Shown here in pieces: positions 1-24,710 of a stretch of 25,000 bases of DNA. The notes under the pieces are model-generated. The model was given only the letters and a program-made list of their open reading frames with translations. It was not told where the DNA came from and did not search any database. Made by a program: the position numbers and the translations under genes. The number at the start of each line of letters is the position of its first letter. Position 1 is the first letter of the stretch. This DNA is from Anaeromyces robustus (lineage: Eukaryota; Neocallimastigomycota; Neocallimastigomycetes; Neocallimastigales; Neocallimastigaceae): the NCBI GenBank assembly GCA_002104895.1, contig MCFG01000043.1:1-25000 (forward strand). The letters are read 5' to 3'.

Positions 1-9052
<9,052 letters not shown>

Positions 9053-11442: not shown

Positions 11443-14012
11443 CTATACACTAGCTTTAGAAGTAGATGCTTCAAGTGCTGTTTTAACTGCTTCTGGATTA
11501 ACTTTATTATTTTGTAATACTTCCAATTTGAAATATTGATGTCCATTTGGAAGTTTACCAAGTGGAATATCCATATTAGCTCTTTTAATTACCTCACATA
11601 CTTCTATTAAATTTTAATAATAATAGTTTGGATTGTTTTATTATAATTATTAGGATATGATGATAAATAACAATGCAAAAATAATAATATTTAAAATGAT
11701 ATTAATATGTTAATATATTATTCATAAATATTAAATGAAATTTAATAATATATAATAATTATAATTAATAATTATAATCATATAATCATAATAATATATA
11801 TATATAAAATAAAAAAAATAAAAAAAATTCAAAAATTTTACTCATTGGTTTATAATTATGTTTATCATGAGATTCACTAAGGAAATCACGATTATCTGGT
11901 TCACGAATATATTTATAATTTGGACCATAACCTTTAGGTATTTCACATCTACCAGGATCTTTATAATCAGTTTGAGTTAAAGATTTAGCTTCAAATTTAC
12001 CAGGTTTTGGTACATATTGTTTTAATTTACATAATTGTTTTGGTACCGATTTTGGTGTATAAGTTGTTTTATAAGTACTTTCTCCTTCAAATTTACCTGA
12101 AGGTACATAACCTTCTTTTTCTTTAATAAATTTCTTTTGAAGTGGCCATTTAATATAATCGGTACGATTACTTGTAGTACCATCAAATGGTAATTTATTT
12201 GGTACATAGGGTTTTGGTGGCTAATTATTAAATATTAAATTTTAATTAAAAAAAATTAAAATTTATTAAATAATTTTTTTTAATTAAATTTATTTTAGAT
12301 ATGACAGATAAAAAAATTAGATAAAAATAGGAAATAATAAAAAGTATTATGGTAATTATTAAAATTATAATAATAATAATAATAATAAAAATAGTTAATA
12401 AAAATTAATATTATAATATTATTTTTAAATATTATATAAATATAAATAATATATATATATATATATTATTATTATTATTATATTTACTATTTGTTCACGA
12501 GTATGAACAGGTAAAGGAACATAAGTAGTTGAATTAATACTTTTAAAATCTCTATCATCTGGAATACTAACAAAAGTTGTTTTTGGTTTAACAATATTCT
12601 TTTCAACGGCCCATGGTCTATAGGAATCTACATGAGTAGTTAGAGAATCTAATTTTTCTTTGGATGGAATATATTGAGTCTTTGGCTATTCATATATGAT
12701 TTTTTAAAAAATAAATAAATATATAATAAATAAAAAAGAATATAAAGAAAAGAGCAAACAAAAAATAAATAATAAATATATGTTAAATAATATATAATAT
12801 ATTTAGTATTATATATATATATATATATAAAATTAATAATTATAATTATTAATATAATAGTTATAAAAAAGAAAAAAAAAAGTATGTATGTATATTTATA
12901 TAATAATTATAAAGATAAAAAAAATGATATATTTATATATATTTATATAAATATTTATATTATAATATAAATAATATAATTAATTATTTCATTTATATAT
13001 ATAATATATATATTACTTTAACACGATTAAGAGGAACTTTCATTTCTATATAATCTGAATGATGAGTACTTTTAAAATCACGATCATCTTTAGGTGAAAT
13101 ATAAGTAGTTTTTTCTTTAGGAGGTCTAATTTGAATTTCCCAAGGTCTATAATCATCTTTAGTGGTTGTCGTACCAGTTTTACCTTTACTTGGAATATAT
13201 TCTTTTCTAGGAGGTTTAGTTAAAGGTTTAACTTCCCAAGGTTTATAATCTGAAGTAAAAGTACTTTCTCCAACAAATTTTGTATTTGGTAAAAGTTGAC
13301 TTTCATGATGAACTCTTGGATCAGGTTTAACTTTCCATTCAGGATAATCCGCTTTAAATGTTGTAGTACCATCAAATTTATTTTTATTTGGAATATATTT
13401 ACTTAATGCTTTCTATAAAATGAAAAATTATAATAATAATAATAATAATTAAAAACAAACAAACAAAACAAACAAAAAAATTGAATTGAAAAAGAAATTA
13501 TAGATGTCATTTGAATTGAATATGTTTAAATATAATGAAATATAATGAAATATATATTGTATTTGTATTAAATGAATGAATGAAATTAATAGGAATGATA
13601 TTTTAATATATAAATCATTTTTTTTTTTGGGTGTGTGTGTGTGTGAATTTTATATATATAGTTTATAATAATTAATTGATATTAAAATATTTTTCATTAT
13701 AATATATAAAACATTTTTGGAAAACCAAATTGTTTTTATATTAAAGATAGAAAAAGAAAATATATATATATAAATATATATTAATAAAGGATAAAAATAT
13801 TAGTATTAATTTTTTTATATGAATTATATGAATTATATTAATTATTAAATTATAATATATATATATATATTGTTTTATCAAAAAATAAAATAAAAATAAA
13901 ATAAAAATAATTAATATAAAAAGGAAAAAATAAAATAAAAATAAAAATAAAATAAAAAATAAAATTTATTATTTAATTATAAATAATATTGAAATTATTA
14001 TTTATAATTAAA

Positions 14013-14055
<43 letters not shown>

Positions 14056-14350
14056 AATAATATTTATATAATATATATTATTTAAATTATGTTCCAAAAT
14101 GATTAATAAATAATAATATAATTAAAATTTATAAATATAATATTATTCAAATTAAATAAATTTTGAGAAATTTTAAAAAAAAAATATATTAAAAAAAGTA
14201 TATATTTATTTAATATATAATAATCATAAGGATAATTTTTTTTAAAATATTAATAAAAAAAATTTTCCTTGATTTAATAATAATATATTAAATAAAATTT
14301 CAAAAAAAAAAAAAAAAAAAAGGAAAAATATAAAAATATAAAAATAAAAT

Positions 14351-14400
<50 letters not shown>

Positions 14401-15422
14401 TTTTTTTAATTAATATATTAATAAAACTTACGACTGTTCTTTTCTCGAGAGGATGTTTAACATATTCTTCTTGATAACTTGTAATGCCATCAAATTTTCC
14501 ACTATTTTTATAAACAAATTCTTTTTTATAATTGGGTTGTCTAAAAGCTTCTTTCTTAATATAATTATCCGAATATTCTGATTATTCATATTATGTTTTT
14601 TTTTTTTTTTTTTTATTATTAATTTATTTATTTATATTTCAATTTATAATAATAATAATATATATGTATATATATATGTAGATGAGTTTAGATTTATTAT
14701 TATTTTTTTTGTGACGGTTATTTTGAAATTTAAAATAATTTTTTTAATAAAATATAATAATAGAATAGAATATATCAATTTATATAAATAAATAAATAAA
14801 TAAAAAAGGAAAAAGTGAAAATATTAATAATAGCATAATAATAGATATAACACTACAACGATATTTGAAAAGAAAAAAAAATTTCTTTTTCTTTCTTTAT
14901 TTTATCTTTAAAAATATCTATATTTATAATATATATTTATATGTATGTATAATTTATTTACCAGTACACTTTTCCATTGGAGGTCCAGATTTTCTTTTTG
15001 AAACTTGACAATGATGCTTATGACAAGTACAAACTATTATTAATTATTATTTTAAATTTAATAATTAAAAAAAAAAAGTATAAATAAATTGTATTATACT
15101 AGATCTTATTTTTTTCTTTCCTATCTTTTTTATATAAAATATCTTTTTTTTTTTTTTTTCATATATTAAACACTTTTTATTTTTCATGTATATTTTAATT
15201 TATTAAAATTTCCTTATATATCGAAATATATATTATATTATATTATAATGATGAGAATATATATTTCTTTTTTTTTTTTTTTTATATATATGAATCATGA
15301 TAATATATATATATTTTATCTTTTATTTTTTATATTTTATATTTTATATTTTTATATTAACCTTCACAGACACATCTGTGATCGCTGGACATTTCGATCG
15401 GGGAAAATATTTGTTTTGTCAT
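11443..15422 (-). CDS. SAXO/FAM154-like microtubule-stabilising protein with Mn-type repeats (7 exons, complete)
   Basis: Exons on the minus strand: 15422-15362, 15033-14962, 14577-14432, 13412-13017, 12685-12488, 12220-11842 and 11603-11443. All introns are GT-AG and in phase, giving 470 aa with stop TAG. Residues 17-29 read CVCEVCTCHKHHC, matching the N-terminal Cys motif of animal SAXO proteins (C-x-C-E-x-C-x-C-x-x-H-x-C). From about residue 52 to 420 some eleven spaced repeats follow, of the form KFDGTTTFKADYPEW or DDRDFKSTHHSDY, the Mn-like microtubule-binding modules of this family. In other eukaryotes these proteins bind and stabilise ciliary and centriolar microtubules. The last 50 residues (KLPNGHQYFKLEVLQ onward) look like a separate tail of unknown role. 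The start is the first ATG after an A/G-rich leader. Exon 1 is visibly richer in G+C than its surroundings. Confidence 0.88.
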
Positions 15423-20432: not shown

Positions 20433-23400
20433 CTATCCTATTCCACTAGGGTCGGAAATAGGATCGGCATTTGCCCTACTAGGCTGTCCTACTGTGTTAT
20501 CAGCATTGACGTTCCTGGAGAGGTTGGTTTTAAATTTATTGAATAATATATGTTGTCTTTTACAGACAACAGGCATGATATCATTCAATAGAGCCGCAGA
20601 TCGCAACAAGAATGGGGATTTTGAATAAGTACCAGATTCAGTCTGACACTTAAACAAACATTCCCATTCCTTTTTGTATGGACTATTGTTAATTCTATCA
20701 CTAAAACCATAATCTCTACCACCAATTAAAAAAATATATATTCTATACCTATTAACTATTTTTTTACTACCTAATATATCTATATTACTTATACTATTAT
20801 TACTACTTTTATAACCCTTAACAATATTATTTATTCTATTATCCACACTAGGGTTATTACTGGTCCTAACTAAACTATTAAAAAGACTATCTAAAAAATA
20901 AAAAAAATTTCTATCTAAATCAGAGAAGTGATCAATACGAAGATTTTTAAATAAGAAACAATTTATAAACCAATGATCAATTCTCTGATAACTGTCACAA
21001 TGGAAACAACATGAACAACAATTAGGACAAGAATTATTAATCATTTTAGCAGCTTTTGCAACTCTAGCATCAATTTTATATCCACATCTTGCCCTAAGTA
21101 TCCACCGAAAACCTTTGCTATATTCAGGAAATTCTAGATTAAGCTTTAAGTAACTTCTTGATTCTTCAAAGTTGTACAATTTATAAGTTTTAGCTTTAAT
21201 TGATTTATCACTGTTCATGTCTCTGTCCCAATAGAATTCCATAATTTCTTTAGTAGAGGATGAAATATTGTTTAATTTATCATTTAATATTTTACTTTCT
21301 TTGTCCCAAGTCCATTTTCTTGTTGTAGCAACATTATTAACTATCTTTGAGATAATGCAGTTGGAGTCCTTCCACTTATTAAAACATCTAACCTGAGCTA
21401 AAGCACATTTACCAGAAAGTGGAGGAATATTGAGTTCTTTTGAGATGCAATAAATAGAAACAAAAGAATTAGGTTTCGAGTAGCCTAAAATCCAATAAAA
21501 ACCTTTGTTAATTATTGTTTGTGTAGAACTAGTATTGTTTTTGTTAGAACCAAGCAAAGGCGCGTAATAGGAAACTTGTCCAATAACTTTTGCAGAGAAT
21601 AAAGTTCTTTTAAGAGGAATAGGAATCAGATCATTTTTTAAAAAACCTTGAATTGAAAACAAAGCCTTACTAACTTTATTTTTCATTTTACTAATAACGA
21701 ATTTTAAATCTAGAGTTTTGTGAAAGGGAACACCAAGGTAAGTATAACAATCTGTTTTAGGGATTGCGATTCCTGTTAAATAAAAGGTAGGGTCCTCTCT
21801 AAGAATATATTCCGAATTTTCATGTCTAACAGCTAATGTGCCACATTTATTAATTCCAAAAGTCATCTCGTTGTCCTTAGCCCATTTACTAACTGAGCGA
21901 AGAAGTTTGTTCATACGAGATCTACTAGGGGCACAAAGAACAATATCATCAGCAAATAATCCTCCACAACAATATTCAGTATCTATTTTCACACCATTAT
22001 GCAGGCAATCGTTGAAGATGTCGTTGATAAACAAATTAAAAAGTATAGGAGATAAGGGACATCCTTGTCGAACTCCTTTAAGTATTCTGAAAGAATCGGA
22101 AAATTGTCCATTAATTTTAACACAAGCTTTGGAAGACAGATATAGGTTCTCCAAAAATTGAAAGCATTTTCCTTGTATACCAAGAGTATAAATTTTCGAC
22201 AAGATGTTATATATGGGCACAGAATCGTAAGCTTTTTTAAGGTCCAGAAAAGCTATATAAGTATCTTCCCCTTTGAATTTACGTCTTTGACAAATAGAAA
22301 GAATAGAGATATAAAGACTAATACATTCTTCCTTATTCCGAAAGCCAAATTGTTCTGGTCTGATGAATCCATGACTTATACCATATTCAGAAATTCTAGA
22401 AGCAATAATTTTTGAAAGAATCTTAATACCATTATTGATAAGTGAGATACCACGATAGTTATCACAATTAGAAAGATCGCCTTTTTTTGGAATAGAAACA
22501 ATGGATGCATTATTCCAAAAAATAGGAAAATCACCATTCCAAATACGATTAATTAAGAAATAGAAACAATTAAGACCAGCCGGAACATAGGAATCATTAT
22601 TTACAGAGTCATTCGAAGAGGAATCAGGAATTAAAGCTTTATAAAATTCAATAGGGATACCATCGGGACCCGAGGCTTTAAAGTTAGGGATAGAAAGGAT
22701 GGCCTTTTTGATTTCTTCAATGCTGATATCTTGGTTAATATCCCATACTATGTTATTTCCACTCTTTATACGATTAATAGCGGGAGAATTCTTCCAGAAT
22801 TTTTTATTCATGCTATGTCCAGTAGAGTCATAACTAAGTTTCTTATAATAATTGCACCAAACATCTAATTGATCTTTAGTACTATACACTAAGTTATCTT
22901 GGTGGTCTCTGATAGGATGAGGTATAAATAACTCCTGATTGTTATTTTTAATATTCTTCTTAATCCATGACCATGATTTTCTGCTGTCATTTTTTAAGGT
23001 AGCCTCGCAGCCTACTTTAATCCAAAATAAATAGTTTTGTCTTCTAAATTCATTACATTTTTTATGAATAGATTGGCATAATTTATTATAAGATGCAACA
23101 AGGATAATAAATTGATTAGGTTCATAATCCAAATGGCTCTTTTTAATTTGTCGATACTTCAAGCTTTTGATTCTTTGAAGACAGTAAATATTACGTGACA
23201 TATGGAACATTGATTTCCTAATTTCAGTAGAAGATGTAATTTCAAGGTCCTCTGCAATTGAATTAGAAGTATTAATAAACTTATCAACTAGATCATCAAT
23301 AGAAAGAGAAGGATTATTAAAGATCTCATTATTTAAAATAGCAAACTTGTTATTGTCAACAATATCGTTTTTCATTTCCTTACAGCGAATTCTATTCCAT

Positions 23401-24710
23401 TGAACAACCTTTTTTGGGTGAGTAAAGGAGAGATCAACAAAATTTTTCTTACAATATACTAACATTGGTTTATGATCAGAGACTGGGTGATAATCAATAA
23501 AGGAAGCATAAGATATAAGGTTCAACATTTTATAATTAACCAAAGCATGATCAATATCTGAAGATAAATTACCTTGAACCCAAGAGATTCTTGAACTATT
23601 GAGAGGTAAAATTATCCAACCATTAATCGGTGATATTTTTTCTTCAAGGTCCACTGTTTTCATGTTAAAATCCCCAACAAGAATAGAAGCATGATCACGA
23701 TGAATATTAAGCCAATCAATAACTTCTGCTAAAGCACACTTCACTTGTGTAGAATGAGAGCTGACAGGGATATATACATTTCCAACAGAGCATTTAGAGT
23801 CGTATATATTATAATTAGTTAAGGAAATAATGTAATTAAATGAATTCTCTTCAAGTATTGCTTGACAAGATTTATGATAACCTAAAAATAAACCTCTCAT
23901 GCCTGGAATACTATCAACGGCTCTTCTAACAAAATATCGGTAATTGGGAATAGTGACTTTACATGGTTGACTACTATTGGCACCAGAACCGTTCTTTGTT
24001 TCTTGAAAACAGAGAAAAAGAGGTTTGAATAATGTGATAAAGTATTCGATACTATCTTTCTTTTCGTGGTTCCATCCATTGGTATTCCAACTGAGACAAA
24101 AAGTAAACTTATCTTTGATAGAATTAAGAGTGTTGAGATTAGAGTGTATACTAACTAATGAGTTGCGTTGGAAAGAATCTGAAGTATTAGATTGTGAGGA
24201 TGTTGTAGTAGAATTACTTTGGTTATTAATTGAATCATTTAAGTTTGTTGTAGAATTTCTTTGGTTATTGATTGAATCATTTAAGTTTGTTGTAGACTTA
24301 CTTTGGTTATTAATTGAATCATTTAAGTTTGTTGTAGAAGAAAATAGTTGATTTCTGATCTGTTGAAGTGACCTTTTACGAATATAATGAGTGCAATTAC
24401 TATACGACAAGCTAGCATTTGAGATATATGATACAAATTTCTTTTTGAAATCATCGAATTTAAAGTCAGATGATAAAACTTTGATCCTAAAATACCAACC
24501 TCTAGAACACATAGATCGTTTAACTGAAAGAATGTACTTGTTGAATTCCTTAAGATTTGATTCCAGAAAATCCATCATATATGCATTGGTCCATGAGTGA
24601 AGGCCATTGATGAAGATAATGCTAGTGTTGTTAATATCAGTTCCATAACAGCGGAATCCACGAACAAAAACATTGCTATTTTCGTTACTATTATAAAAAT
24701 TTCGTACCAT
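20433..24710 (-). CDS. Non-LTR retrotransposon endonuclease/reverse transcriptase polyprotein
   Basis: 1425 aa, intact, ATG at 24710 and TAG at 20435-20433. Residues 30-95 look like an RRM-like or ORF1-type fold (inference). Residues 124-180 are a Ser/Thr/Asn-rich linker with three 14-residue repeats. Residues 203-418 are an APE-type endonuclease: LSWNTNGW with N209, QET with E237, GDFN at 346-349, SDIDHALV at 384-391 and SDH with H413. Residues 660-1000 are the reverse transcriptase: SGPDGIPIEFY, IPKKGDLSNCDNYRGISL, motif A FLDLKKAYDS (D823), motif B RQGCPLSPILFN and motif C FADD (D921, D922). At 1228-1251 CPNC followed by HWFINC gives a C-x2-C...H-x4-C zinc-binding type motif. Near 1366 PFLLRSAALLNDIMP resembles the conserved tail of other non-LTR elements. 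All catalytic residues are present, so the copy may be functional. Its product would nick target DNA and copy element RNA into it. Confidence 0.95.
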   Translation of the reverse strand: MVRNFYNSNENSNVFVRGFRCYGTDINNTSIIFINGLHSWTNAYMMDFLESNLKEFNKYILSVKRSMCSRGWYFRIKVLSSDFKFDDFKKKFVSYISNASLSYSNCTHYIRKRSLQQIRNQLFSSTTNLNDSINNQSKSTTNLNDSINNQRNSTTNLNDSINNQSNSTTTSSQSNTSDSFQRNSLVSIHSNLNTLNSIKDKFTFCLSWNTNGWNHEKKDSIEYFITLFKPLFLCFQETKNGSGANSSQPCKVTIPNYRYFVRRAVDSIPGMRGLFLGYHKSCQAILEENSFNYIISLTNYNIYDSKCSVGNVYIPVSSHSTQVKCALAEVIDWLNIHRDHASILVGDFNMKTVDLEEKISPINGWIILPLNSSRISWVQGNLSSDIDHALVNYKMLNLISYASFIDYHPVSDHKPMLVYCKKNFVDLSFTHPKKVVQWNRIRCKEMKNDIVDNNKFAILNNEIFNNPSLSIDDLVDKFINTSNSIAEDLEITSSTEIRKSMFHMSRNIYCLQRIKSLKYRQIKKSHLDYEPNQFIILVASYNKLCQSIHKKCNEFRRQNYLFWIKVGCEATLKNDSRKSWSWIKKNIKNNNQELFIPHPIRDHQDNLVYSTKDQLDVWCNYYKKLSYDSTGHSMNKKFWKNSPAINRIKSGNNIVWDINQDISIEEIKKAILSIPNFKASGPDGIPIEFYKALIPDSSSNDSVNNDSYVPAGLNCFYFLINRIWNGDFPIFWNNASIVSIPKKGDLSNCDNYRGISLINNGIKILSKIIASRISEYGISHGFIRPEQFGFRNKEECISLYISILSICQRRKFKGEDTYIAFLDLKKAYDSVPIYNILSKIYTLGIQGKCFQFLENLYLSSKACVKINGQFSDSFRILKGVRQGCPLSPILFNLFINDIFNDCLHNGVKIDTEYCCGGLFADDIVLCAPSRSRMNKLLRSVSKWAKDNEMTFGINKCGTLAVRHENSEYILREDPTFYLTGIAIPKTDCYTYLGVPFHKTLDLKFVISKMKNKVSKALFSIQGFLKNDLIPIPLKRTLFSAKVIGQVSYYAPLLGSNKNNTSSTQTIINKGFYWILGYSKPNSFVSIYCISKELNIPPLSGKCALAQVRCFNKWKDSNCIISKIVNNVATTRKWTWDKESKILNDKLNNISSSTKEIMEFYWDRDMNSDKSIKAKTYKLYNFEESRSYLKLNLEFPEYSKGFRWILRARCGYKIDARVAKAAKMINNSCPNCCSCCFHCDSYQRIDHWFINCFLFKNLRIDHFSDLDRNFFYFLDSLFNSLVRTSNNPSVDNRINNIVKGYKSSNNSISNIDILGSKKIVNRYRIYIFLIGGRDYGFSDRINNSPYKKEWECLFKCQTESGTYSKSPFLLRSAALLNDIMPVVCKRQHILFNKFKTNLSRNVNADNTVGQPSRANADPISDPSGIG
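24213..24338 (-). repeat. Three tandem 42-bp repeats inside the retroelement ORF
   Basis: Three units encode STTNLNDSINNQSK, STTNLNDSINNQRN and STTNLNDSINNQSN (residues 125-166), differing at one or two positions. The frame is kept, so the repeat lengthens the linker between the N-terminal region and the endonuclease. The high identity points to recent expansion. Confidence 0.92.

Follow-up and report, generated by a model that had tools for sequence, protein, structure and literature searches.

A pair of SAXO1/2-family genes in a genome pointing to a flagellated anaerobic gut fungus

The gene at 11443..15422 of the window (the whole analysed stretch of DNA, 25,000 nucleotides) is, judging by its predicted product, a genuine member of the SAXO1/2 family. 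By analogy with characterized relatives, that product is very probably an ordinary axonemal or basal-body microtubule stabiliser, of SAXO1/2 type, belonging to a flagellated gut fungus.

Gene Structure and Family Assignment

The gene lies on the minus strand, starts at 15422 and stops at 11443, and is divided into seven exons by six introns (328, 384, 1019, 331, 267 and 238 bases), all six of which have GT-AG borders. The spliced frame of 1413 bases codes for 470 amino acids with no internal stop, codon 45 being split by intron 2, and the GC content of the coding sequence is 29.9% vs 15.9% for the whole window. The coordinates and the 470-aa length proposed by the first-pass annotation, as well as its description of the gene as intact, are borne out by the gene model, the parts of which are as follows:

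11443..15422, minus strand: SAXO1/2-family gene, whole coding region with introns, 470 aa (gene model, Pfam PF05217 and PDB SAXO1 match)
15362..15422, minus strand: exon 1, start codon and first part of the cysteine motif (gene model)
14962..15033, minus strand: exon 2, remainder of the cysteine motif CVCEVCTCHKHHC, ending just past T44, the first residue of Mn-like motif 1 (gene model, motif positions)
14432..14577, minus strand: exon 3, remainder of Mn-like motif 1, plus motif 2 (gene model, motif positions)
13017..13412, minus strand: exon 4, 396 bases or 132 aa, i.e., four 33-aa units, motifs 3-6 (gene model; paralogue exon equally long)
12488..12685, minus strand: exon 5, 198 bases or 66 aa, i.e., two 33-aa units, motifs 7-8 (gene model; paralogue exon equally long)
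11842..12220, minus strand: exon 6, motifs 9-12 (gene model, motif positions)
11443..11603, minus strand: exon 7, C-terminal tail and stop (gene model)
15008..15374, minus strand: SAXO "motif 1" cysteine cluster, residues 17-29, split by intron 1 (motif scan; published motif in PMC3280300)

A decayed gene or pseudogene was ruled out, as the frame stays open through all seven exons and the layout is kept in a paralogue located on another contig.

The assignment to SAXO/FAM154, already proposed by the first-pass annotation, is upheld by profile and sequence searches. The 470-aa protein matches PF05217 (SAXO1-2, "Stabilizer of axonemal microtubules 1/2") with 70.3 bits (E 2.2e-19; curated Pfam cut-off 26.5 bits), and the sole further Pfam row, SspK, stays below its cut-off (E 0.79). 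In the PDB sequence search seven of 177,635 distinct sequences were found at E up to 1: the best is SAXO1 (8ou0_D, 477 aa, E 6.3e-24), followed by two STOP-named chains (E 1.1e-9 and 1.4e-7), a flagellar associated protein (E 2.7e-5), two sequences of SPM1 (E 2.9e-5 and 3.2e-5), which is a Toxoplasma protein (PMC8144581), and, no better than chance, an outer dynein arm light chain (E 0.22). When viral contigs were scanned with the SAXO protein, five stretches fitted a pattern and none was confirmed.

The general composition of the protein resembles that of published SAXOs, with some departures. Its pI is basic (9.45; 8.25-9.05 in published SAXOs), and its proline content of 9.8% lies slightly below the 11.6, 13.2 and 20% of three published members, for which no threshold is stated (PMC3280300). 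A Cys-Pro (CP) motif, described as a C-terminal feature from a limited set of SAXOs (PMC3280300), occurs nowhere in the 470 residues; for family membership this absence ranks as secondary to the PF05217 profile match.

Cysteine Motif and Mn-Like Repeats

Residues 17-29 form a cysteine cluster, CVCEVCTCHKHHC, that corresponds to SAXO motif 1 (PMC3280300). The cluster fits a relaxed pattern written for the present analysis, CxCxxCxCxK[HC]xC; from the literal published motif of 15 positions it differs at five, all of them non-cysteine, with the five cysteines in place. The N-terminal motif seen by the first-pass annotation is present, in a form that fits the relaxed pattern.

The cluster is followed by an array of [TS]x5Y sites, of which there are 12, at residues 44, 77, 110, 143, 175, 208, 241, 274, 307, 339, 371 and 408, with spacings of 33, 33, 33, 32, 33, 33, 33, 33, 32, 32 and 37. 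"About eleven" Mn-like repeats had been noted before; the array stands, while the count is raised to 12, 11 of which are in unbroken register. A chance origin of the repeats was ruled out by shuffling: the shuffled protein contains 4.16 [TS]x5Y sites on average and reached 12 in one of 5000 shuffles, and the longest unbroken run of [TS]x5[YF] at 32/33-residue steps, 11 in the protein, never exceeded 4 in 20,000 shuffles. The stricter [TS][TS]x4[YF], which is the published Mn-motif syntax (PMC10973386), occurs at eight sites, a number found in none of 5000 shuffles (mean 0.99, maximum 7).

A Diverged Paralogue with the Same Register

A second SAXO gene is encoded on the minus strand at C556:35932-38485. 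It also consists of seven exons with GT-AG borders at all introns, codes for 455 aa and matches PF05217 with 61.8 bits (E 8.3e-17). SAXO genes on contigs other than C556 and that of the window (C368) were found neither by protein search (10 matches, E up to 0.001) nor with PF05217 (4 matches, E up to 1); both searches worked exon by exon, and only one of the four PF05217 rows exceeded the cut-off on its own.

Aligned over 438 columns, the two proteins share 34% identity, and yet the architecture of their genes is closely similar. Intron phases are equal at six of six introns, exons 2, 4 and 5 have the same length in both (72, 396 and 198 bases), for exons 1, 3 and 6 the difference is three bases apiece, and exon 7 measures 161 vs 119. 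The paralogue carries 12 in-register units (at 45, 77, 110, 143, 175, 208, 241, 274, 307, 339, 371 and 405; a 13th [TS]x5Y, at 349, is off register and left out of this count) and an 11-motif run at 32/33 residues, with a shuffle maximum of 4 in 20,000. Between motifs 2 and 11 all nine spacings are the same in both proteins, and the first and the last differ (33 vs 32 and 37 vs 34, the 470-aa protein being given first). An RDF variant in units 6, 8 and 12 is common to both, and CP is found in the paralogue at residues 36 and 71 only. Since the register is intact in two strongly diverged copies, these comparisons argue for selection on motif spacing and not for decay.

Exons 4 and 5 comprise, in both paralogues, whole multiples of the 33-residue repeat (four and two units), which may be a vestige of the way the array expanded.

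Could one of the two copies act outside the flagellum, e.g., in the walled thallus, on stable microtubules of the cytoplasm or the spindle? Such a division of labour would agree with the low identity, with the different net charge (+29 for the 470-aa protein, +7 for the paralogue) and pI (9.45 and 8.61), and with the activity of the Mn-motif proteins MAP6 and SPM1 outside cilia (PMC12228683; PMC8144581). However, human SAXO1 and SAXO2 are also 34% identical and both are thought to be ciliary or flagellar (PMC9564825), and a non-flagellar paralogue is considered unlikely.

Other Features of the Window

At 20433-24710, on the minus strand, lies an intact 1425-aa ORF of a non-LTR (LINE-like) element with endonuclease and reverse transcriptase domains. 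At least 48 matches to it, the window copy included, are present in the genome (33 of 3667 candidates scored), 45 of them at 94-100% identity and many stop-free. As the copies are nearly identical and often free of stops, the family looks recently active.

The region of about 2-9052, on the minus strand, has a signal-peptide-like start at 9052 and secreted repeat-like exons, and is possibly a single large multi-exon receptor gene. Within this candidate gene the open frame 1983-2750 contains an EGF-like stretch, and its membrane segments, joined by eye, resemble the class C GPCR domain 7tm_3 (E 2e-7; 31.4 bits vs a cut-off of 33.5); two membrane segments, each taken alone, and the exon 4532-4939 gave no family. 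A long (AAT)n/(ATT)n tract at 2402-2757, which can be read through in several frames, as poly-Asn, poly-Ile, poly-Leu or poly-Tyr, lies within or beside the receptor-like gene.

The Host Genome

The genome that was searched comprises 70,169,043 bases in 769 contigs, and the window belongs to a contig (C368) of 265,797 bases. A profile search with CBM_10 (PF02013), which we take to be the fungal dockerin domain, gave at least 150 domains over the cut-off (150 of 683 candidates scored), a count of domains, several of which fall in one protein. The genome also has three genes for xylose isomerase; one of them was compared with PDB 5nh4, presumably the Piromyces enzyme, and gave a gap-free alignment of 436 residues (E 2.1e-287). 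Bacterial relatives also score well, so that this match alone is not decisive for the host. For anaerobic fungi, 234-632 dockerin proteins, assemblies of 56-201 Mb and, in seven tabulated genomes, a genomic GC of 16-22% with a coding GC of 26.2-29.1% have been reported, and the assembly of Anaeromyces robustus is given as 71.69 Mb in 1035 scaffolds (PMC12341934). Taken together, the genome content is pointing to an anaerobic gut fungus of the Neocallimastigomycota.

The life cycle of these fungi switches between zoospores with flagella and an immotile thallus (PMC7609409), and the phylum is described as having the broadest flagellar toolkit among fungi, with centriole-associated modules reduced (PMC13358043). 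In agreement with this, five of the six ciliary families tested besides SAXO were matched in the genome over the cut-off: SAS-6_N (one match, E 2.1e-16), Radial_spoke (E 1.1e-43), IFT46 (E 5.5e-19, two contigs), DM10 (E 1.1e-32) and ParcG/PACRG (E 1.2e-44). None of the ciliary searches gave a match in 14 control genomes, those named being bacteria and as such uninformative on eukaryotes. The two IFT46-like loci lie at C57:109510-110794 and C432:25664-26741. SPACA9 is a luminal partner of SAXO in human cilia; a search for it found no match in a run that lacked a positive control and in which the control genomes were silent too.

The SAXO gene thus occurs in a flagellated host, as is indicated by the ciliary families of the genome and the zoospores of the phylum (PMC7609409). 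The first-pass annotation had started from the opposite premise, a cilium-free amoeba of the dictyostelids, and had proposed for the protein a cytoplasmic, spindle or centrosome-corona role, or that of a relic. Low GC, homopolymer-rich introns and AAT repeats, all of which are met here, are Dictyostelium-like features. Very low GC is typical of anaerobic fungi as well and is by itself no sign of Dictyostelium, and a literature search found, among the papers listed and judged by titles and abstract openings, no SAXO protein reported from Dictyostelium. A dictyostelid origin is ruled out by the CBM_10 domains, the xylose isomerase close to 5nh4, the five ciliary families and the 70.2 Mb assembly; with flagella in the phylum and ciliary genes in the genome the premise of a cilium-free host is wrong, the chance that the gene is a dictyostelid SAXO with such a non-ciliary role is practically nil, and the cytoplasmic, spindle or relic role becomes needless.

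Ciliates are neighbours of rumen fungi, and it might be asked if the SAXO gene entered the assembly as a contaminant, derived from some other rumen organism with flagella or cilia. Against this stand the length of the contig and the copies of the LINE family (pieces 91-100% identical) that are found on the CBM_10 contigs C212, C390, C235, C77 and C37 as well as on the IFT46 contig C57, and which imply that contig C368 belongs to the same genome. In addition, the paralogue, whose intron phases are the same, is located on another long contig (430,182 bases). Contamination is accordingly regarded as extremely improbable, and the gene is treated below as that of the flagellated fungus.

Proposed Mechanism and Relation to Known Systems

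The way in which a SAXO of the flagellated fungus would act can be outlined from its solved relatives. In Toxoplasma SPM1 the density that follows a protofilament is unbroken, and accounting for it takes all 32 residues of each unit; at the intradimer interface the unit forms a short helix, with the conserved T/S at one end and F/Y at the other (PMC8144581). The Mn motifs of SAXO sit 8 nm apart (PMC9564825). By these examples the chain would be stretched along a protofilament, most likely at its luminal face; each Mn-like motif would form a short helix at the interface within one tubulin dimer, and one 33-residue unit would span one 8-nm dimer. The protein would in this manner hold consecutive dimers together like a staple and lend stability to microtubules of the zoospore flagellum, either those of the doublets or those of the basal body, as may be expected from TbSAXO of Trypanosoma brucei, which is axonemal, stabilises microtubules and has a role in motility (PMC3280300). 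An AlphaFold prediction of exon 4, made with a two-sequence alignment including the paralogous exon, was uninformative (mean pLDDT 52.6, pTM 0.12).

The closest likeness is to SAXO1/SAXO2 (FAM154A/B), with which the protein shares the N-terminal cysteine cluster, the basic pI and the length (470 aa vs the 477-aa PDB chain), and mouse Saxo1 also has 12 Mn-like motifs (PMC3280300); what differs is the fungal host, the literal motif 1 and the C-terminal CP, the latter two being unmatched. TbSAXO likewise begins with motif 1 and continues with linear Mn-like repeats, but has 6 of them instead of 12 (PMC3280300). SPM1 is built from tandem Mn units of about 32 residues and was solved as a luminal filament along the protofilament, whereas it has 6 units, belongs to cortical, non-axonemal microtubules (PMC8144581) and is a weak sequence match (E 2.9e-5). 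MAP6 and MAP6d1 (STOP) also carry the Mn motif, stabilise microtubules and target the lumen; they have fewer Mn motifs, two in MAP6d1 (PMC12228683), and are described as being without SAXO motif 1 (PMC3280300).

By analogy, 12 motifs at 8 nm each would make a chain of about 96 nm, the length of one axonemal repeat. That such a chain is a 96-nm molecular ruler, by which the fungal SAXOs would help to phase the docking of 96-nm structures on the doublet, is quite unlikely. The idea draws on the strict register, which has its nine inner spacings in common between two proteins of only 34% identity; a ruler role is speculative, since 12 motifs are present in mouse Saxo1 too, TbSAXO has only 6 (PMC3280300), and those of FAP363 are spread across two protofilaments (PMC8144581).

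Concluding Remarks

In the published account of a 2012 BLAST survey SAXO was not found in fungi, and the link between SAXO and flagella had exceptions, i.e., its presence in non-flagellated Cryptosporidium and three flagellates in which it was missed (PMC3280300). A report of a fungal SAXO was not found in our literature search, which covered publications, and the word "saxo" is absent from the main text of a 2026 atlas of the fungal flagellum, which may nevertheless include SAXO under another label (PMC13358043). Set against the 2012 survey, the occurrence of two SAXO genes in a fungus is mildly new, while the family and the probable role are ordinary. The apparent paradox of a SAXO without cilia is gone, and its place is taken by the consistent picture of two SAXO paralogues in a fungus that swims with flagella, a host in which the presence of SAXO is to be expected.
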